From assembly GCF_018678075.1 (NCBI RefSeq), contig NZ_JAHHIR010000014.1, forward strand, positions 1 through 64,000: a stretch of DNA of 64,000 nt, given 5' to 3'. Origin of the DNA: Epibacterium ulvae. Lineage in GTDB: Bacteria; Pseudomonadota; Alphaproteobacteria; Rhodobacterales; Rhodobacteraceae. Below the pieces are notes generated by a model. That model saw nothing but the letters and a program-made list of their open reading frames with translations, was not told where the DNA came from and ran no database searches. This document shows, piece after piece, positions 7,688 to 53,771 of this stretch (its first letter is position 1; each line of letters opens with the position of its first letter). The position numbers were made by a program, and so were the translations under genes.

Positions 7688-8920
7688 ATGAGCAGTGGAC
7701 TGCCGCAACCAGAGACGAGTTCAATCACCGCCTGTACCATCAGTCGGGATGTGCAGAACTTTGACCTGTTGATCGAGGATATGGAGACCGCTCTGGGCGA
7801 AGCCTGGGGGGATCTATCCTTTGACGAAGCCCTGCCGTTCTTTGCCCAGGATGAGGCGCAGTCGTTGGAATTTGTGGCGCTTGCCATGGACTGCGACGAC
7901 GAAGATGAGCTGGACCGCATGGGCACCATCATCCAAGCCGCCAAAGAAAAAGACATCAAGGTGATCCTGATCGCCGAAGACGTCACCCCTGCCGCGCTTC
8001 ACACCCTGTTGCGCAAGGGCGCGGATGAATTCATCCCCTACCCTTTGCCCGAAGACGAATTGCAATCCGCCATCGAACGGCTGCGCAGCCAACCGGTTGT
8101 GCCGGTCGCCGAGACCAATCCCGCATTGCAGTCCCAAAACCAGCGCGAAGGCGCGGTCATTGCCTGTCACGGTTTGGCCGGCGGCGTTGGTGCCACAACC
8201 CTGGCCGTGAACCTGGCTTGGGAAATTGCGGAACGCTGCGAAGGGGATACGCCCTCGGTCTGCATTCTGGATCTTGATCTTCAATTCGGCTCGGTCGCCA
8301 CCTATCTGGATCTGCCCCGGCGTGAAATCGTGGCGGAACTGCTCAGCGATATGGAAGCGCTGGACGACGAGTCCTTTGGCCAAGCGCTGGTCAACTATGA
8401 GGACAAGCTACAGGTCTTCACCGCGCCAACCGAAATGCTGCCGCTTGACTTTATGGCGCCCGAAGATGTCACCCAATTGATCAAGATAGCGCGCAAACAT
8501 TTTGATTTTGTTGTCATCGACCTGCCGAAATCGCTGGTGCAATGGTCCGAGACCGTTATGAACATGTCGCATCTCTATTTTGCCGTGATCGAGCTGGACA
8601 TGCGCAGCGCCCAGAATGCGCTGCGGATCAAACGGCTGTTGCAGTCCGAGGATCTCCCCTTTGAAAAGCTGCGGTTTGCATTGAACCGCGCCCCGAAATT
8701 TACGGATCTTGGAGGCAAAAGCCGGGTGAAACGCCTGTCTGAATCGCTGGATATCTCCATCGACATCCAACTGCCGGACGGTGGCAAAACGGTCATGCAG
8801 TCCTGTGACCATGGTCAGCCGCTGGCGCTGTCCACGCCCAAGAACCCTTTGCGCAAAGAAATCGGCAAGCTCGCACAATCCCTGCATGAGCTTGGCCGCA
8901 ACGAGGCCGCGGCCGCATGA
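7688..8920 (+). CDS. cpaE: Pilus localisation ATPase TadZ/CpaE
   Basis: A 410-residue MinD/ParA-superfamily protein that places the Tad apparatus in the cell. Residues 1-130 form a receiver-like N-terminal domain (ending in LRKGADEFIPYPL). The ATPase begins with the deviant Walker A GGVGATTLAVN near residue 165, followed by CILDLDLQFGS and FVVIDLPKSLVQWS. The start at 7688 follows a GAAAGAGGA site. The tadA gene begins 19 bases after the stop, so the two are very likely co-transcribed. Confidence 0.92.
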   Translation: MSSGLPQPETSSITACTISRDVQNFDLLIEDMETALGEAWGDLSFDEALPFFAQDEAQSLEFVALAMDCDDEDELDRMGTIIQAAKEKDIKVILIAEDVTPAALHTLLRKGADEFIPYPLPEDELQSAIERLRSQPVVPVAETNPALQSQNQREGAVIACHGLAGGVGATTLAVNLAWEIAERCEGDTPSVCILDLDLQFGSVATYLDLPRREIVAELLSDMEALDDESFGQALVNYEDKLQVFTAPTEMLPLDFMAPEDVTQLIKIARKHFDFVVIDLPKSLVQWSETVMNMSHLYFAVIELDMRSAQNALRIKRLLQSEDLPFEKLRFALNRAPKFTDLGGKSRVKRLSESLDISIDIQLPDGGKTVMQSCDHGQPLALSTPKNPLRKEIGKLAQSLHELGRNEAAAA

Positions 8921-8939
8921 TTATTGTTTAAGGTGACAG

Positions 8940-10379
8940 ATGTTTTCGCGATATAAAAAACAAGCTCCTGCCCAACCGGTCAAGGCCACGCCCAAAGCCG
9001 CTGCAGCCCCGGCTGAGGCGCCCAAAGCGGCCTCTATGCGCAAAGCTGCGACCGAGAAAAAAGCCGCCAAACCTGCGCCGCAGGACAAGGAACGCAAGCG
9101 CAAGGAGCGGCTTGGCCAGATCAAGGTCGAGCTGCACCGCGAATTGCTGGAAAACCTGAACCTGAGCGCGCTGGAACACGCCAGCGAACAGGATTTGCGT
9201 ACCGAGATTTCCGCCATCGCCACAGAAATTCTGTCGGAAAAAGGCGTGGTTCTGAACCGCGAAGACCGCCAGACCCTGAACAAGGAACTCTATGACGAGG
9301 TCACCGGCCTTGGTCCGCTTGAGACTTTGCTACAGGACGACACGGTCAACGATATTCTGGTCAACGGCCCGCAACAGATCTTTGTTGAACGGGCGGGTAA
9401 GCTGGAACTGAGCGACATCACCTTCAAAGACGAACGCCACCTGATGCGGATCATCGACAAGATCGTATCGGCCGTTGGGCGTCGCGTTGATGAATCCAAC
9501 CCTTATGTGGATGCCCGTCTCAAGGATGGTTCGCGTTTCAACGCCATGGTGCCACCGGTTGCGGTGGACGGCTCGCTGGTCTCCATTCGTAAGTTCAAAA
9601 AGGACAAGCTGGGCATCGATGACCTGGTGAATTTTGGGGCCTTTACTGAAGAAATGGCCGCCTATTTGCAGGCCGCTGTGGCGACGCGTCTGAACATCAT
9701 CGTCTCCGGCGGTACCGGTTCGGGTAAGACTACAACGCTAAACGCACTGTCGTCGTTTATCGACAACTCTGAACGTATCCTGACCATCGAAGACACCGCC
9801 GAACTTCAACTGCAACAGACCCATGTGGGTCGGATGGAAAGCCGTCCGCCAAACGTTGAAGGCAAGGGTGAAGTATCGCCCCGCGACTGTCTGAAAAATG
9901 CCCTGCGGATGCGGCCTGACCGCATCATCGTGGGTGAGACCCGCGGCGAAGAAGTGATCGACATGCTGCAGGCGATGAACACTGGTCACGATGGATCGAT
10001 GACCACGATCCACGCCAACTCGGCCCGTGATGGCGTCTCGCGTCTTGAAAACATGATCGCCATGGCCGGGATCGAAATGCCGATCAAAGCGGTGCGCAGT
10101 CAGATCTCTTCGGCGGTGAACGTGATTGTGCAGGCCTCACGTCTGCAGGATGGCTCGCGTCGTATGACATCCATCACCGAAATCACCGGCATGGAAGGCG
10201 ATGTGATCTCGATGCAGGAAATCTTCCGCTACCAGCGTGTCGGCCTGACCCCGGACAACAAGATCATCGGCCACTTCACCGCCAGCGGCGTGCGGTCGAA
10301 CTTCTCTGAACGGTTCCGTCTGTGGGGTTACAATCTGCCGACCGCCATTTATGAGCCCACCACGATGGAGAGCTTCTGA
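8940..10379 (+). CDS. cpaF: Tad secretion ATPase TadA/CpaF
   Basis: A 479-residue hexameric motor ATPase of the type II/IV secretion family that powers pilin polymerisation. A Lys/Ala-rich N-terminal tail (to about residue 60) precedes the N-domain. Walker A is [10 protein letters not shown] near residue 257, the Asp box is near [10 protein letters not shown], Walker B includes [11 protein letters not shown] near 335, and the His box is [13 protein letters not shown]. The length and motifs are normal for the family. It overlaps tadB by one base (TGATG), indicating translational coupling. Confidence 0.96.
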
Positions 10380-46301: not shown

Positions 46302-46517
46302 AGATTCCTCTAAAATTTTACGTTGTTTTTAAACGGCTTACGGCATTTATCGCGATCAACGCGCCCGAGACCACCATATCTTGTGTCCCGACATCATAGC
46401 AACCTCCCATTGGTTAACGCACTAGCCGAAATTGTTAACCATTCGCCTTAAGTGCGCCCCGCTTTTCCTAAAATTCGCGTAAAACGTATTTAAGAGTTGT
46501 TAGGAAAGGTTAAGATA

Positions 46518-46850
46518 ATGGTTGCAGTAAATGGCGTTACAAACACCACCAGCGTCAGCGTTTATCGTCAGATGAACAGCCACCTGAACGGCCACGGCGG
46601 AACCAAAGTCATGCCGACCCAGGACACGCCGGATGCCGGTTACCGGAATATGGGGGAAAAAGCGCCCGTTATCACCGACGCCAGCCGCCAATACGCGCAA
46701 AAGCTTTATGAAGCGCAGAACGCCCGCTACCTGCCCGGCAATGTCACGATGGAGCAAGCGGTGCAAAACCGTATCAACAACCCGCAAGAACGCTCTGAAC
46801 ACCAAAAGGCCCTGGATGCCGTGCGTGACATCCGCAGCGGCCTTTACTGA
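46518..46850 (+). CDS. Small soluble protein of unknown function
   Basis: A 110-residue protein with a strong AGGAAAGG site nine bases before the ATG at 46518. It is hydrophilic, rich in Asn/Gln/Arg, with an amphipathic C-terminal half (ASRQYAQKLYEAQNARYLPG, RSEHQKALDAVRDIRSGLY). I do not recognise a family. Its frame continues in register past the TGA stop for 25 sense codons to a TAA at 46928. The 5' region contains half-site TTAACC motifs. The LysM cassette is convergent. Confidence 0.7.
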   Translation: MVAVNGVTNTTSVSVYRQMNSHLNGHGGTKVMPTQDTPDAGYRNMGEKAPVITDASRQYAQKLYEAQNARYLPGNVTMEQAVQNRINNPQERSEHQKALDAVRDIRSGLY

Positions 46851-46951: not shown

Positions 46952-47977
46952 TTACTGGATCTGCGACCAGAACGCTTCCAAATGCCGGGTCATGATCTGT
47001 TCGAACCGACCGCTATCCCGCAGTGCTTTTAGGCCCGCATTCACCCGGTACAAATGCGAGGTGCCACGCCAGTGACGTTTGGAAATCACCACGCTCAGAT
47101 CTTCCTGCGAAATGGGACGCTCCAAAGGCACCACCTGCTCGCGCAGGCCCTCCGCAACGATGGTTTCAACGCCAAGGAACAGGTTCATCGCAACCGCGTC
47201 CACATCGCCATCATGCAGCAAGGCAAAACACCCCTGCGGCTGCGGTTGGTTGACAATGGTCACGTCTGCTTCTGTCATCCAGGAACGCTTCGTTTCATCT
47301 AGGTTGTGCCCGGAAAACGACACGGGCCGACAGATGGTTTTACCATTCAGGTCCGATGTCTCTGTAAATGCGAACGGCCGCTCTGCATCCACGAACAACA
47401 TCATCGGCAAGCTCACCACCGGGTCAGAGAAGTGGAACCTCACGCAGCGCTCATGTGCAGGATCCGCTTCACAATCAGGCTTGATCCAAGGAAAGCCCAT
47501 GTCGAACTGCTTGTCATCCAGCATAGGGAACAAATGCTGGGACCAATCGTCCTCCCAGCTTACCGCATATGACACTGGTGACGGCGCCAACTCCAGCGCG
47601 GCATTGACCAGTTCTGTCACCATCCCCTGCCCCGGCAGATCCTGCCCTGAAAACGGGCCAAAGTTACCACCAGTCAGCAAGGTCATCTCAGCGTCGACTT
47701 TGCGCAACGGCGTGGCGTCAGGCACGATCTCTTCTTCTGGGCACGGAATAAACAGGGTCCGGCCCGGAATGACCGTCGATGCCGCAAGCAGACGTTGGTT
47801 GCGGTAATAGATCAGGCTCCACCGTTCGCGATCGCCATAATGTTCCTCGGCGATAGAAAACAAGTTGTCGCCAGGCTTGGCAACATAGTCGACATTACAG
47901 ATCGCAAAGGCAGCCGAGGGGGCAAACCCCAAGGCCAACACAACGCGAAGGATCCCAGGAAACAACAGCTTGTGCAT
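46952..47977 (-). CDS. Secreted LysM plus solute-binding-domain protein (copy A)
   Basis: A 341-residue periplasmic protein. From MHKLLFPGIL a signal peptide ends near SAAFA-IC. A LysM domain follows (about 27-82: YVAKPGDNLFSIAEEHYGDR, VIPGRTLFIPC), framed by two Cys. The rest, about 100-335, is a family-3 solute-binding fold (MTLLTGGNFGPFSGQ, LDDKQFDMGFPWIKPDC, VRFHFSDPVV, LNGKTICRPVSFSG). Such proteins usually bind amino acids for an ABC transporter, but no permease genes are near. It has no transmembrane anchor; the LysM may hold it at peptidoglycan. It is a paralogue of the gene ten bases upstream. Confidence 0.82.
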   Translation of the reverse strand: MHKLLFPGILRVVLALGFAPSAAFAICNVDYVAKPGDNLFSIAEEHYGDRERWSLIYYRNQRLLAASTVIPGRTLFIPCPEEEIVPDATPLRKVDAEMTLLTGGNFGPFSGQDLPGQGMVTELVNAALELAPSPVSYAVSWEDDWSQHLFPMLDDKQFDMGFPWIKPDCEADPAHERCVRFHFSDPVVSLPMMLFVDAERPFAFTETSDLNGKTICRPVSFSGHNLDETKRSWMTEADVTIVNQPQPQGCFALLHDGDVDAVAMNLFLGVETIVAEGLREQVVPLERPISQEDLSVVISKRHWRGTSHLYRVNAGLKALRDSGRFEQIMTRHLEAFWSQIQ

Positions 47978-47987
47978 GCCCGCCCCC

Positions 47988-49067
47988 TTAGAACCCGGCC
48001 CAGATGCGGGCCATATGCTGTTCGATGATCGCCTGATAGGCGCCAGTATCATGGATTTCACGTAGCCCGTCGTTCACCAAATCTAGAATTTTTTCCGCTT
48101 CCGGATGGGTCTTGTGAACAATCACATGCAATGCTTGGATCGCGATAGGTTCCGGGACAACTGTAAACTCGTCAGTTAGGCCTAACTCGGCAATATGAGC
48201 GCGACCGGTGAATTCATTCATCACCGTAGCATCCGCCTCACCGGCCAGTACCATTTCATAGCATTCGGTTGGCGTCAGCGGTTGAACCAGTGTGACCTTG
48301 CCATCGCGTAATAAGTTGCGACCGTCCTGGTCAAACAAATAGGCTTCATACCCCTGTGGGCGACAGAAGGTCTTACCAAAAAGGTCTTCGTCCTTGGAGA
48401 ACGTCAGCGGGCGATCTTTGTCGGTAAACATCAAGACCAGCACCTCGAACATCGGGTCCGAGAAATGGAAGTTCACGCACCGCTCAGCCTCTGGGTCGTT
48501 CACGCAATCCGGTTTGTACCAAGGAAAACCAGCATCCAAGAGCGCGTTGGACAACAGTGGTTCCTCATGCGAGGTCCACAAATCCACCCAATGGATCGCG
48601 TAACCATCTAACGGATCGGCCGCTTTCATCGCTGCTTCCACGATCTCGGTCATCAGGCCGCCGGCGTGCAGTTCCTTGCCGGTAAAAGGTTCAAAATCAT
48701 CTGCAGTTAGCAGGTTAATCTTGTGCCGCACCGCGGCGTTGCCTTGCGCAATCTCGACGGGTTGTGCTGCAGTTGGCTCTGCATCCGCGATGAGCTTACC
48801 ACCTTCCAAACCAGTTGGCAGGCCGTCAAGGCAGGGGATGTTCAAATTCATGCCAACCCGGATTGCATTAGGACGAGCTCCAATGGCTTTAATGTTCTGG
48901 GTGTGGATCACGCTCCACTTTCCCACGTCTTTGAACAGCCGGTCTGCAATAAGCGACAGGCTGTCGCCGGATTGAACGGTATAGATCCCACCACAGGTCT
49001 CAGCAGCGGCGGATTGTGCAGCAAGGGTGCTCAACCCCAAAACAGCGGCAGTAATATAGTTCTTCAT
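47988..49067 (-). CDS. Secreted LysM plus solute-binding-domain protein (copy B)
   Basis: A 359-residue paralogue of the preceding gene. From MKNYITAAVLGL a signal peptide ends near SAAA-ET. The LysM domain (about 24-80: YTVQSGDSLSLIADRLFKDV, IRVGMNLNIPC) again lies between two Cys. The solute-binding part keeps the same motif DAGFPWYKPDC-x-DP-x-ERCV-x-FHFSDP and the FGKTFCRPQGYEAY segment. The two proteins therefore share a family-specific Cys pair (PDC and ERC) likely forming a disulfide. It precedes copy A with only ten bases between them, so one mRNA is expected. Confidence 0.82.
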   Translation of the reverse strand: MKNYITAAVLGLSTLAAQSAAAETCGGIYTVQSGDSLSLIADRLFKDVGKWSVIHTQNIKAIGARPNAIRVGMNLNIPCLDGLPTGLEGGKLIADAEPTAAQPVEIAQGNAAVRHKINLLTADDFEPFTGKELHAGGLMTEIVEAAMKAADPLDGYAIHWVDLWTSHEEPLLSNALLDAGFPWYKPDCVNDPEAERCVNFHFSDPMFEVLVLMFTDKDRPLTFSKDEDLFGKTFCRPQGYEAYLFDQDGRNLLRDGKVTLVQPLTPTECYEMVLAGEADATVMNEFTGRAHIAELGLTDEFTVVPEPIAIQALHVIVHKTHPEAEKILDLVNDGLREIHDTGAYQAIIEQHMARIWAGF

Positions 49068-49185
49068 GTGTCCCCCTAAAGGCATGGCAGCACGGTGTGC
49101 AGACACCGCAAAAGTTATTTTTCTCAGAAGAAGATGCGGCTGGGCCTGCCCCTCGGATCACGCCCAGTCGAAGTTGACTGTCTTA

Positions 49186-50514
49186 TTAGTTCGCAAACAG
49201 AGCCAAGATTGTTGGGCTGTCAACGCGCCCATCCGCCAGAACCAGACTGGAAGGAACCGTTACCTGCCCTGCGGCATAAGCCTCATTCAGCGCGGCATCT
49301 ATTTCATCCTCGCTCAGCCCGTCTGCCAGCGCCTTAACAACCAGATCAAAAATATAGACAGGCTCGGCATCGACTTTCGAAGCAGTCGCCTTGGGGCTTT
49401 TCAGCGCCGCGAGTGTCCCGAGGGTCATTTTCTCAACAAGCGCCACATCCCTGTCTTTGGCATCGTCTGGCAGCGACGACAGATTGCTCACCAACAACAG
49501 TTTTTGCGCGGTAGAAACATGTGGGCCTGCGCTCTCTTCCGATTCAACCCTAGCTGCGGGCGCAGGCGCGGCCTCTTCAACCTCGGCAATAGCCTGAGCT
49601 GCCGGGATTGCAACTGCGGCCTCCACTGGAGCTGACACGACTTCCGCAGGGCTTCCCAACTTGCTCATCGCGGCGGAAATTGCCTCCTGCATCAGATCGC
49701 CAGACGCTTCAGTCTGCTCGACGCTCTCTTGTACAACCGCCACCGGCGCCACAATCGCCGCCTTGTCTGGCGCGACACTCGGTGTCACAATCTCGGGCAC
49801 AGCGTCTTTTGCCACAGTTTCAACCCCTAAGGTCGCCTCTGGCACACTGGTTGTAACACGTGGTTCAAAAACAACTGCGGAAACAGGTTCAAGATTGGTC
49901 AACGACGGCTCGGGGGCGGGTACTATTTCTGCCTTGACCGCCAGAACCGGGTCATTGGTTTCGCCAGCAGCAATTTCGACCGACGCGGCGACTGCGAGTG
50001 CTTCTACAGCTGCGGGCACGGGCGCGGTCTGTACGGCAATGACCTCCCCCTGCGCAATCGCCTCGGACTTACCGCCTGCAAATTGCAAAACCCCTAACCC
50101 TAAGGCAAGAACGCCCAGCGCAGCTGCCGCCAATCCTAATGGCTTGAGCGAAGGCGACCGCCCTGCTTTGCCATCCAACGCAAAAGCCGCATCGCTTTGC
50201 GCACTGGCAGAGGCCAAAGATTTCGGCGTCATCCCTGCAGAGGGTTTGCTGATCTTGGCATTGAGCGCTTTTGCCGGACTGGCGTTTACCGCCTTCGCGG
50301 GGCTAACTTTTGCAGTCTTATTTTTTGCAACCCTGAGCTGTTCAACACTGGCAGGTGTCGCATCAGCTTTTTTGGTTTTATCTTGCTCGTCTGGCGTGGA
50401 CTTCAAAGAAATCTTGATGTTCCCAGTCGACGAAACGCTTTTGACCTGAACCTGGCCCGCATCCGCTGCGTTTGCCGCTGGCTTTACTTTGGCATTCTTC
50501 AATTGCTCTTGCAT
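49186..50514 (-). CDS. Ala/Val-rich single-pass membrane protein of unknown function
   Basis: A 442-residue protein from MQEQLKNAKVK. Residues 1-135 are a Lys/Ala/Ser-rich cytoplasmic tail with repeats of the type SPAKAVNASPAKALNAK. One membrane helix lies at about 137-157 (LGLAAAALGVLALGLGVLQF). The remainder is Ala/Val/Pro/Glu-rich with a folded C-terminal end (TAQKLLLVSNLSSL, ALADGLSEDEIDAALNEAYA). No family is recognised. It is upstream of the LysM pair on the same strand, with 118 bases between, and has a CtrA-type site 65-79 bases ahead of its start. It could be a wall-facing scaffold for them. Confidence 0.68.
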   Translation of the reverse strand: MQEQLKNAKVKPAANAADAGQVQVKSVSSTGNIKISLKSTPDEQDKTKKADATPASVEQLRVAKNKTAKVSPAKAVNASPAKALNAKISKPSAGMTPKSLASASAQSDAAFALDGKAGRSPSLKPLGLAAAALGVLALGLGVLQFAGGKSEAIAQGEVIAVQTAPVPAAVEALAVAASVEIAAGETNDPVLAVKAEIVPAPEPSLTNLEPVSAVVFEPRVTTSVPEATLGVETVAKDAVPEIVTPSVAPDKAAIVAPVAVVQESVEQTEASGDLMQEAISAAMSKLGSPAEVVSAPVEAAVAIPAAQAIAEVEEAAPAPAARVESEESAGPHVSTAQKLLLVSNLSSLPDDAKDRDVALVEKMTLGTLAALKSPKATASKVDAEPVYIFDLVVKALADGLSEDEIDAALNEAYAAGQVTVPSSLVLADGRVDSPTILALFAN

Positions 50515-50578
50515 GAAATATGCATCCCCCAAAAACTGGCACCCGAATTGCGAGCCACCACCGAAAATCTCCAATTCG

Positions 50579-50593
50579 TTAAGGGTTTCTTAA
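50579..50593. promoter_or_regulatory. CtrA-type binding site, TTAA-N7-TTAA
   Basis: The palindromic-type motif TTAAGGGTTTCTTAA matches the full alphaproteobacterial CtrA consensus, with the trailing ACC that strong half-sites often have. It lies 65-79 bases ahead of the minus-strand start at 50514, where a promoter would be. Activation or repression by CtrA of the downstream cassette is therefore likely but unproven. Confidence 0.6.
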
Positions 50594-50861: not shown

Positions 50862-53771
50862 TCAGCCCAGCGCGTCGTTACAACGACCACAGACACCGGG
50901 ATGGGCGAATTTGCCGACGTCTGGCAGGATCTTCCAGCAGCGTTGGCATTTCTCACCGTCGGCCTTTTCAAACACGACCGAGACACCGTCCACTTCGGGC
51001 ATGCGGAAGGCTTCCGCCGGGCTTGGGTCGATGGTCAGGCTGATGTCCGAGGTAATGCAGACATCGGCAAAATTCACCGACTGCAGCGCCTCCAACACAT
51101 CCGCCTCGCGCGCATGCACGACAGGCGCGGCTTCCAGAGAGGCCCCGATCACCTTGTCTGTACGTTGCACTTCCAGAGCCGAGGTCACAACGCGGCGCGC
51201 CTGACGGATCTTGGTCCATTTGGCGGCCAGAGGCTCGTTCAGCCAATCGCGTGGCGTGTCCGGCATATCGGTCAGATGGATCGAGCTGTCATCGCCTGGA
51301 TAGCGCTCCAACCAGACCTCTTCCATGGTGAAGACCAGAACCGGTGCCAGCCATGCGGTCAGACGGTGGAACAGCAGATCCAGAACCGAACGCGCAGCCC
51401 GTGCATTCAGCGTGTCCCCATCGCAATAGAGCGCATCCTTGCGGATATCGAAGTAAAACGCCGACAGATCCACAGTGGCAAAGTTAAAGATCGCCTGCCA
51501 CACGCCATTGAAATCAAAGGCTTTGTAGCCCTCGCGCACGGTGTGATCCAGCTCGGCCATCCGGTGCAGCACCCATTGCTCCAACTCGGGCATATCGGCG
51601 GGCTGCACACGTTGGTCCTCGGTGAAGTCCCCCAGCGAGCCAAGCATGAACCGCATGGTGTTGCGCAGACGGCGATAGCTGTCGGCGGTGCCCTTCAGGA
51701 TTTCCGGACCGATCCGCTGATCGGCGGTATAGTCAACTTGCGCCACCCACAGACGCAGAATATCGGCGCCATATTGTTTAACCACGGCCTCGGGCACGAT
51801 GGTGTTGCCCAGGGATTTGGACATTTTCATGCCCTTCTCATCCAGGGTAAACCCATGCGTCACCACGTTTTTATAAGGCGCGCGCCCCTTGGTGCCACAG
51901 GCCTGCAACAGGGACGAATGGAACCAGCCACGGTGTTGGTCGGTGCCTTCCATATAGACATCAGCAATACCGTCCTCGGTCCCGTCTTCACGGTCGCGCA
52001 GCACAAAAGCGTGGGTCGAGCCAGAGTCAAACCAGACGTCCAGAACATCAAACACCTGATCATAGGCATCCGGGTCGGCGATCCCGTCCAGCATCTTGGC
52101 CTTGAAGCCATCCTCATACCAAACGTCGGCACCGTGCTCCTCGAACGCGGCTTTGATGCGGGCGTTGACCTCATCATTGCGCAGCAGGAAATCCGCATCC
52201 GTCGGCAGCGCGCCGGATTTGGTGAAACAAGTCAGCGGCACACCCCAGGCACGTTGACGCGACAGCACCCAGTCGGGGCGGCTTTCGATCATCGAATGCA
52301 GGCGGTTGCGGCCGGTTTGCGGTGTCCAGGTCACCAGCTCGTCAATGGAACGCAGCGCGCGTTCGCGGATGGTATCGCCCATCTGCCCCATGCCATCATC
52401 CAGTTTGCGATCCACACCGGCAAACCACTGCGGCGTGTTGCGATAGATGATCGGAGCCTTGGAGCGCCAGGAATGCGGGTAGCTGTGTTTGATCTTGCCG
52501 CGCGCCATCAAGCCGCCGACTTCGACCAGCTTGTCGATGACGGTCTTGTTGGCATCGCCCTCACCGCCCTTGCGGTTCAGGATGTATTTGCCACCAAAGA
52601 ACGGCAGATCCGCGCGGAAACCACCATCATCCATGACGTTATAGGTGATGACCTGCTCCAACATGCCCAGATCACGGTAGAGCTCAAACTCTTCCATACC
52701 GTGAGACGGCGCGCAGTGCACAAAACCGGTGCCTTCGGTGTCGGTGACAAATTCGGCAGCGCGGAAGTCGCGGATACCGTCCCATTCGCCATTGCCCCCT
52801 TCGGCTCCGGCCAACGGGTGGGTCAGACCGATACCCGCCAGATCCTCGGTCGGAACATCGCTGACGCGGGTGTATTGTCCTTCTTCAAGACGGGCGCGTT
52901 TGAACACATCCGCCGCCAGATTGTCGGCCAGAACGTATTTGTCGCCCACATTCACCCAGCTCTCATCCGGGGTGCCGGTGACCTCATAGAGACCATAGGC
53001 AATGTCTTCGCCGTACACGACCGCTTTGTTTGACGGCATGGTCCAGGGCGTTGTGGTCCAGATCACCACATAGGCACCGGCCAGTTTGTGGTCCGCAGGT
53101 TCCGCGACCTTGAACTTCACCCAGATGGTAAAGCTTTCCTTGTCGTGATACTCCACCTCGGCCTCGGCCAGGGCGGTTTTTTCCATGGGCGACCACATCA
53201 CCGGTTTGGAGCCCTGATACAGTGTGCCGTTCATCAGGAACTTCATGAACTCATCCGCAATCACCGCTTCGGCGTGGTAGTTCATGGTCAGATAGGGATC
53301 TTCCCAATTGCCAGTGATGCCAAGACGTTTGAACTCTTCGCGCTGGATCTTTACCCATTCATCGGCAAAGGCGCGGCATTCCTGGCGGAACTCAACAACG
53401 GGTACGTTGTCTTTGTTCTTGCCCTTCTTGCGGTATTTCTCTTCGATCTTCCACTCGATCGGCAGGCCGTGACAGTCCCAGCCCGGCACATAACGCGCAT
53501 CAAACCCCATCATCTGGTGGGAGCGGACGATCATATCCTTGATCGTTTTATTCAGCGCGTGACCAATGTGCAGGTGACCGTTCGCATAAGGCGGGCCATC
53601 GTGCAGGGTAAAGGGGGTGCGGCCCTCTTTTTCCCGCAGGCGATCATAAACACCGATTTTCTCCCAACGATCCAACCATGCGGGCTCGCGCTTGGGCAGG
53701 CCTGCGCGCATGGGGAAGTCGGTTTTCGGAAGGTTCAGCGTGTCTTTGTATTCGGGCGTGTCGGCGCACAT
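50862..53771 (-). CDS. ileS: Isoleucyl-tRNA synthetase
   Basis: A 969-residue class I aminoacyl-tRNA synthetase that charges tRNA(Ile). The HIGH motif is at residues 68-71 (NGHLHIGHALNKT) and the KMSKS loop reads MKMSKSLGNTIV near 647. The editing domain (CP1) and anticodon-binding region are present. A C-terminal zinc site CQRCWKILPDVGKF and CGRCND is intact. The start MCADTPEYKD has AAAGGACG upstream. A length and motif set typical of bacterial IleS; no alternative identity. Confidence 0.97.
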   Translation of the reverse strand: MCADTPEYKDTLNLPKTDFPMRAGLPKREPAWLDRWEKIGVYDRLREKEGRTPFTLHDGPPYANGHLHIGHALNKTIKDMIVRSHQMMGFDARYVPGWDCHGLPIEWKIEEKYRKKGKNKDNVPVVEFRQECRAFADEWVKIQREEFKRLGITGNWEDPYLTMNYHAEAVIADEFMKFLMNGTLYQGSKPVMWSPMEKTALAEAEVEYHDKESFTIWVKFKVAEPADHKLAGAYVVIWTTTPWTMPSNKAVVYGEDIAYGLYEVTGTPDESWVNVGDKYVLADNLAADVFKRARLEEGQYTRVSDVPTEDLAGIGLTHPLAGAEGGNGEWDGIRDFRAAEFVTDTEGTGFVHCAPSHGMEEFELYRDLGMLEQVITYNVMDDGGFRADLPFFGGKYILNRKGGEGDANKTVIDKLVEVGGLMARGKIKHSYPHSWRSKAPIIYRNTPQWFAGVDRKLDDGMGQMGDTIRERALRSIDELVTWTPQTGRNRLHSMIESRPDWVLSRQRAWGVPLTCFTKSGALPTDADFLLRNDEVNARIKAAFEEHGADVWYEDGFKAKMLDGIADPDAYDQVFDVLDVWFDSGSTHAFVLRDREDGTEDGIADVYMEGTDQHRGWFHSSLLQACGTKGRAPYKNVVTHGFTLDEKGMKMSKSLGNTIVPEAVVKQYGADILRLWVAQVDYTADQRIGPEILKGTADSYRRLRNTMRFMLGSLGDFTEDQRVQPADMPELEQWVLHRMAELDHTVREGYKAFDFNGVWQAIFNFATVDLSAFYFDIRKDALYCDGDTLNARAARSVLDLLFHRLTAWLAPVLVFTMEEVWLERYPGDDSSIHLTDMPDTPRDWLNEPLAAKWTKIRQARRVVTSALEVQRTDKVIGASLEAAPVVHAREADVLEALQSVNFADVCITSDISLTIDPSPAEAFRMPEVDGVSVVFEKADGEKCQRCWKILPDVGKFAHPGVCGRCNDALG

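Follow-up and report, generated by a model that had tools for sequence, protein, structure and literature searches.

What does a bacterium do with two adjacent proteins that couple a LysM domain to a solute-binding fold where no transporter is encoded beside them? The question is raised by three minus-strand genes, given the working names P3, P2 and P1, in the 64,000-nt stretch of Epibacterium ulvae DNA analysed here (the window). A first-pass annotation had read P2 and P1 as tandem secreted paralogues, each with a LysM domain and a family-3 solute-binding protein (SBP) domain, accompanied by an Ala-rich one-pass membrane protein (P3), and had proposed a wall-anchored, ligand-binding cassette. 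We observed the domains and the fold, conservation of the tandem, the lack of a linked permease and, in part of another branch of the family, linkage to Ser/Thr kinase genes whose products have a matching topology. The finding is solid as genomics. The most economical functional account, to which we would give about an even chance, is that P2 and P1 are paired wall-tethered secreted receptors that signal, and we infer sensing rather than import, as the first-pass annotation had fairly suggested. A literature search, limited to open-licence PMC papers, found no paper describing proteins with LysM and SBP_bac_3 domains; the LysM protein of PMC5839243 is an M23 peptidase and not a member of the LysM-SBP family.

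Domains and fold of P2 and P1

P2 (47988-49067, 359 residues) and P1 (46952-47977, 341 residues) are 36% identical, lie 10 bases apart, and each consist of a signal peptide, a LysM domain, a linker and an SBP_bac_3 domain. P3 (49186-50514, 442 residues) lies 118 bases upstream of P2, and ileS (50862-53771) precedes P3-P2-P1 in the same direction. The signal peptides of P2 and P1, assigned by eye and without a lipobox, suggest that both proteins are secreted.

The LysM domain of P2 (48834-48983), flanked by C25 and C79, scored 22.8 bits against PF01476 in a genome search (cut-off 20.9); scored as single proteins, P2 and P1 reached 20.4 and 14.4 bits, both below that cut-off, and the P1 domain (47744-47887) is weak alone (E 0.037). 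A profile of the family matched the LysM of Kbp with an E-value of 5e-9, and this match and the genome search back the assignment of LysM to the family. Judging from the LysM domain alone, P2 and P1 would bind peptidoglycan.

The SBP_bac_3 domains (P2 residues 114-356, 48000-48728; P1 residues 95-336, 46970-47695) scored weakly as single sequences. The Pfam scores of the two paralogues against PF00497 were 22.5 and 21.9 bits, below the gathering cut-off of 26.4. The family profile, however, matched solved SBP_bac_3 members significantly (E 4.7e-12), and the AlphaFold models of P2 and P1 both contain the complete two-lobed family-3 fold. Because family profiles and models settle the fold, we assigned it despite the weak single-sequence scores, and the first-pass reading of two adjacent LysM and family-3 SBP paralogues was borne out. 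The best structure matches of the models were LAO and GlnBP, and further matches included the sensor domains of a histidine kinase (3h7m), BvgS and RmcA, plus transport proteins.

Ligand-site positions were taken from a profile alignment to 4zv1. R196 of P2 aligns with the Arg that holds the carboxylate of a bound amino acid, and N284 aligns with the Asp that holds its amino group. Arg occupies the position of R196 in 80 of 81 P2 rows and 68 of 80 P1 rows, and Cys 188, 197, 235 and 269 (P2 numbering) are invariant across all 193 aligned rows. P2 and P1 resemble the LAO/GlnBP type in their complete bilobed fold and carboxylate-type Arg, but differ from it in the added LysM domain, the four extra conserved Cys, the replacement of the amine-type Asp by Asn in most members, and the absence of a linked permease.

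Conservation of the pair and its neighbours

We use window-type for the branch of the family to which Epibacterium ulvae P2 and P1 belong. A scan of named genomes with a P2-only alignment as the query yielded relatives that were confirmed in 167 cases. We retained the best 80 of the 167, and with this query the 80 loci are window-type by construction. By title nearly all are roseobacters (Tritonibacter, Leisingera, Phaeobacter, Roseobacter, Roseovarius, Tateyamaria, Planktomarina and others). One record named Nocardioides marinus DP1N28-1 (L187) has a roseobacter-like ileS-P3-P2-P1 locus and is probably a mislabelled or mixed assembly. P1 lies directly downstream of P2 in 79 of the 80 loci, and the contig ends in the remaining one; P3 lies directly upstream of P2 in 42 of 80, a count that may be low because P3 detection rested on two seeds at E 1e-4. 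The cassette is conserved, and no gene besides P2 and P1 is so constant. Upstream of it, ileS is found in 18/80 loci, as local synteny. Of the 80 loci, 63 have 5 kb on both sides.

Among recurring neighbours across the 80 loci we found no other constant partner, bar a shadow frame on the strand opposite to P2 and P1. A Pfam search with four of the recurring neighbours recognised no wall enzyme, and two of the four had no match. No kinase, FHA or PP2C match was found near any of the 80. An amino-acid-type ABC permease (HisM/HisQ type, the permease type profiled) was near one locus (L148), in agreement with the first-pass view that the pair has no ABC permease partner. Neither outcome that the first pass had named as fatal to its idea, a LysM region without support or a constant pairing with a permease, came about. 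Around the cassette in the window, 20 proteins put to Pfam (a subset of the window's genes) included no ABC permease and no two-component gene; the window also holds two branched-chain-type ABC ATPases 12 kb off, an MFS transporter and an RND transporter.

In a sample of 198 genomes of the Rhodobacteraceae, LysM-SBP profile matches at E 1e-15 occurred in 33, including a few partial ones. When 337 genomes sampled across the class were examined, with only the best candidates per genome scored, 26 had matches; these were full-length in three, all of the same family, and SBP-only or LysM-only in the other 23.

These neighbourhoods bear on a transport explanation, in which P2 and P1 are orphan SBPs that store a ligand or feed an ABC permease encoded elsewhere, with LysM spreading them along the wall. 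SBP_bac_3 proteins are mostly transport subunits, the fold is complete with LAO and GlnBP as best matches, the carboxylate-type Arg is kept, and ABC-type ATPases match somewhere in the flanks of 22 of the 80 loci. The near absence of an amino-acid-type permease argues against this, as do the annotated neighbouring ABC genes, which at the Phaeobacter sp. G2 copy are the molybdate genes modABC, on the other strand and with their own binding protein. A wall tether would also be unusual for a shuttle, and two non-identical copies stay together. We consider scavenging rather unlikely, though it is the best placed of the alternatives.

P3 has one membrane segment by hydropathy (residues 125-143, 50086-50142), and from its charge the basic N-terminus, which carries the short conserved motif VKSVS..GNIKI.LK, is probably inside and the remainder outside. 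The first-pass description of an Ala-rich one-pass protein holds for this single-pass inner-membrane protein with its Ala/Pro/Val-rich linker, but had missed a conserved and probably periplasmic C-terminal domain (49186-49545), which in relatives elsewhere is followed by LysM in the same protein. This domain was found in 23/198 genomes of the family sample, adjoining a LysM-SBP pair in four (G000, G064, G075 and G126). Twelve of the remaining 19 places were fetched (L104-L115), and all twelve encode roseobacter proteins of 270-364 residues with a hydrophobic stretch near the start, a P3-type domain and, by eye, a LysM-like C-terminus; the one put to Pfam (L107) scored as LysM with E 3e-9. That the P3 domain is fused to LysM elsewhere and encoded next to LysM proteins here hints, by Rosetta-stone logic, at a joint action of P3 with P2 and P1. 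P3 had no match in a search of plasmids, which is insensitive, given that a P3-sized gene lies upstream of the Phaeobacter sp. G2 pair.

The fusion would also suit structural or enzyme-regulating wall proteins, whose SBP fold, now a ligand-poor scaffold, would connect the wall with the membrane or direct wall enzymes. That both P2 and P1 carry LysM, that four Cys are invariant and that the amine-type Asp is lost in most window-type rows all fit such a role; however, the carboxylate-type Arg and the two-lobed fold are kept, and the four recurring neighbours put to Pfam yielded no wall enzyme, two of them being without a match. We regard a scaffold as unlikely.

On the plus strand, a 117-residue open frame (46497-46850) lies between an ogt-like gene and P1; Pfam and NCBIfam gave no match to it, and it may not be a gene.

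Relatives beside Ser/Thr kinases

The first-pass annotation had found no signalling partner, which is true of the window locus but not of the family, since the other branch lies partly beside Ser/Thr kinase genes. In non-window-type relatives, tandem LysM-SBP pairs directly adjoin such a gene (Pfam on examples), and among the sample's 21 non-window-type genomes a kinase locus lies beside LysM-SBP in 9. Seven of these show the kinase gene itself (G043, G079, G140, G160, G185, G191 and G197); the other two are cut by contig ends, with FHA and PP2C at the contig start in G195 and the end of a kinase gene (C-terminal domain) at the contig start in G022. Seed searches detected FHA in three and PP2C in four of the nine. 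Gene calls at the loci of these sample genomes came from a simple open-reading-frame heuristic that missed some genes (e.g., at L041 and L045), which were then corrected. On named plasmids, all six full-length non-window-type pairs have kinase, FHA, PP2C and dynamin-family genes around them (Ruegeria sp. THAF33, B32, AD91A and SCSIO 43209, R. conchae and Leisingera sp. S132), although the six are not independent because five are from Ruegeria. The plasmid pairs are annotated as 'transporter substrate-binding domain-containing protein', and within a few kb lie sugar-type ABC genes (THAF33, AD91A) or TRAP genes (S132), each with their own binding proteins.

The kinases themselves fit a periplasmic input. 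In a hydropathy and profile test, 7/7 kinases adjoining LysM-SBP pairs had a membrane segment and a periplasmic domain, which is what such an input would need, whereas in kinases of dynamin operons away from the pairs (see below) the same test found this in 1/21 (L210), with another (L214) similar by eye. From this linkage and matching topology, some receptor pairs in the other branch appear to be connected to kinases. The best solved match of the kinases' periplasmic domain is DegQ (E 0.0041), a weak resemblance that is no more than suggestive of a PDZ identity. Many kinase-linked proteins end in Asn, and we did not use shared C-terminal tails as PDZ ligands, as the Asn ends are not universal and window-type ends differ.

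In a phylogenetic tree, rooted for drawing only, P1 and P2 each formed a single clade (100/96 and 98/95), joined at 100/99, and 16/17 kinase-linked rows fell in two further clades (99/96 and 100/100); the 17th (G022) grouped with rows not beside a kinase. The separate paired clades indicate that paired receptors exist in both branches. Co-occurrence, tested at a Pkinase threshold of E 1e-15 and ignoring phylogeny, agreed for the non-window-type genomes, with FHA in 11/21 against 4.3 expected (p = 6e-4) and kinase in 18/21 against 10.1 expected (p = 3e-4).

The Epibacterium ulvae genome has two Pkinase matches at this threshold, both on other contigs. One belongs to a complete operon (L073; contig C68, 41-8305) in which three dynamin-like genes accompany those for kinase, FHA and PP2C, and the kinase of this operon has no membrane segment or periplasmic domain. 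Twenty other FHA loci fetched from 41 FHA-positive genomes, away from LysM-SBP pairs, likewise have kinase-FHA-PP2C followed by dynamin-like genes, two or more in 19 of 20 and one in L214; the literature search described above found no description of this operon. The second match is a kinase with a hydrophobic stretch by eye, in a locus (L072, contig C75) that by eye resembles a type VI secretion system (T6SS), with TssL/TssM-like, TagF-like, PppA-like and PpkA-like genes. A T6SS link of the cassette was set aside, this locus being on another contig.

Some loci of relatives place LysM-SBP genes beside other binding proteins. At 2-4830 of L064 (G022), the end of the kinase gene is followed by genes for three types of binding protein in succession: PBP_like_2 + OmpA, DctP-type and LysM-SBP. 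The OmpA domain binds peptidoglycan, and this protein thus resembles P2 and P1 in joining a binding-protein fold to a peptidoglycan-binding domain, but with another binding-protein family and another wall-binding domain. Two LysM-SBP genes in L061 (G008) adjoin two DctP-like binding-protein genes by eye, with no TRAP permease seen up to the contig end. In L066 (G063; 8173-9082) a LysM-SBP gene broken by stops lies downstream of a phosphate-binding-like gene that is also apparently split.

Proposed signalling by the pairs

Two described arrangements can be compared with the pairs. The PknG substrate GarA is an FHA protein, and GlnH belongs to family 3. For Actinobacteria it has been proposed that the solute-binding protein GlnH affects the kinase PknG by way of GlnX (PMC6069109), a model in which an SBP without a permease of its own works via a membrane protein on a Ser/Thr kinase. 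That paper describes the activation of bacterial Ser/Thr kinases as an outstanding question. GlnH differs from P2 and P1 in being one putative lipoprotein, for which no LysM is mentioned, and GlnX and PknG resemble neither P3 nor the membrane kinases found in the other branch. The window branch, unlike that system, has no linked kinase (0/80 loci; 3/12 genomes with a kinase), whereas GlnH-type kinase linkage is found in part of the other branch (9/21 genomes, 6/6 plasmid pairs). TagR, alongside RtkS, belongs to the threonine phosphorylation pathway of the T6SS. RtkS is reported as a periplasmic regulator of that pathway, linked with PpkA (PMC6082577), and part of the other branch resembles the pathway in combining a putative input from the periplasm with kinase, PP2C and FHA; however, no T6SS core gene was noticed at the kinase-linked loci (read by eye, with no profile search), and the T6SS-type kinase locus of Epibacterium ulvae is not on the contig of the cassette. 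The excerpts of the two papers mention neither LysM nor paired receptors; the GlnH and RtkS precedents show that periplasmic proteins, one of them an SBP, are linked to Ser/Thr kinases elsewhere.

On the receptor reading, P2 and P1 would be two secreted periplasmic proteins working together, each tethered to the wall by LysM, whose SBP domain would close on a small carboxylate-bearing ligand, either an amino-acid-like compound or a wall-derived peptide. The pair would not hand this ligand to a pump of its own; binding would alter its contact with a membrane protein. The window-type partner would be P3 (at about half of the loci), contacted via its periplasmic domain, and the conserved N-terminal motif of P3 may serve as an intracellular output. 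In the other branch, a Ser/Thr kinase that has a periplasmic domain would take the place of the membrane partner.

Several results weigh against the receptor reading. P3 was not detected beside 38 of the 80 pairs, and ABC-type ATPases match in the flanks of 22 of the 80 loci. A relationship between the P3 domain and the kinases' periplasmic domain was rejected by profile comparison (probability 0.2%). Twelve of the 21 non-window-type genomes show no adjacent kinase locus (G083 was not fetched, and others are on short contigs). Window-type genomes have an FHA gene in 2/12 against 2.5 expected (p = 1) and a kinase in 3/12 against 5.8 expected (p = 0.14), the other 9/12 being without a Pkinase match at the threshold; with no kinase, FHA or PP2C near the 80 loci and no co-occurrence, the output of the window-type cassette is not, in general, a kinase. 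The position of N284 is Asn in 79/81 P2 and 71/80 P1 rows (Asp in 1 and 9), so that the ligand site may have changed or fallen out of use. In the kinase-linked branch this position is Asp in 6/8 first-protein rows and Glu in 7/8 second-protein rows, with the Arg kept in 3/8 and 6/8. Site conservation together with these branch differences suggests a cleft that is constrained, branch-specific and need not take ordinary amino acids. Plain amino acids, which the first pass had offered as a possible ligand, are therefore not a safe guess even with the Arg kept. Overall, the first-pass interpretation is partly supported.

That P2 and P1 serve as detached sensors for the kinase-FHA-PP2C-dynamin operon on the other contig is very unlikely: the operon is complete in Epibacterium ulvae and such operons in other roseobacters carry other-branch LysM-SBP pairs, but its kinase lacks a membrane segment or periplasmic domain, and the FHA and Pkinase counts just given, which show no co-occurrence of window-type genomes with the operon, led us to rank this explanation low.

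Returning to the pairs as receptors, and more tentatively, with a probability that we place somewhat short of even, wall-tethered LysM-SBP pairs of roseobacters may be ligand-sensing subunits that serve single-pass membrane proteins. In one branch the protein served would be a Ser/Thr kinase whose periplasmic domain is PDZ-like, many of these loci also having FHA, PP2C and dynamin-like genes; in the window branch it would be P3, as a kinase-free relay. As the window-type pair is kept across roseobacters without a linked kinase, it must have another output. On the subunit reading, peptidoglycan anchoring would let the cell read solutes or the state of the wall at a fixed distance from the membrane. 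The putative receptor pair beside a membrane kinase on Ruegeria and Leisingera plasmids makes the kinase input testable in culturable marine bacteria. A further lesson is that a gene annotated as 'transporter substrate-binding domain-containing protein' may have no part in transport.

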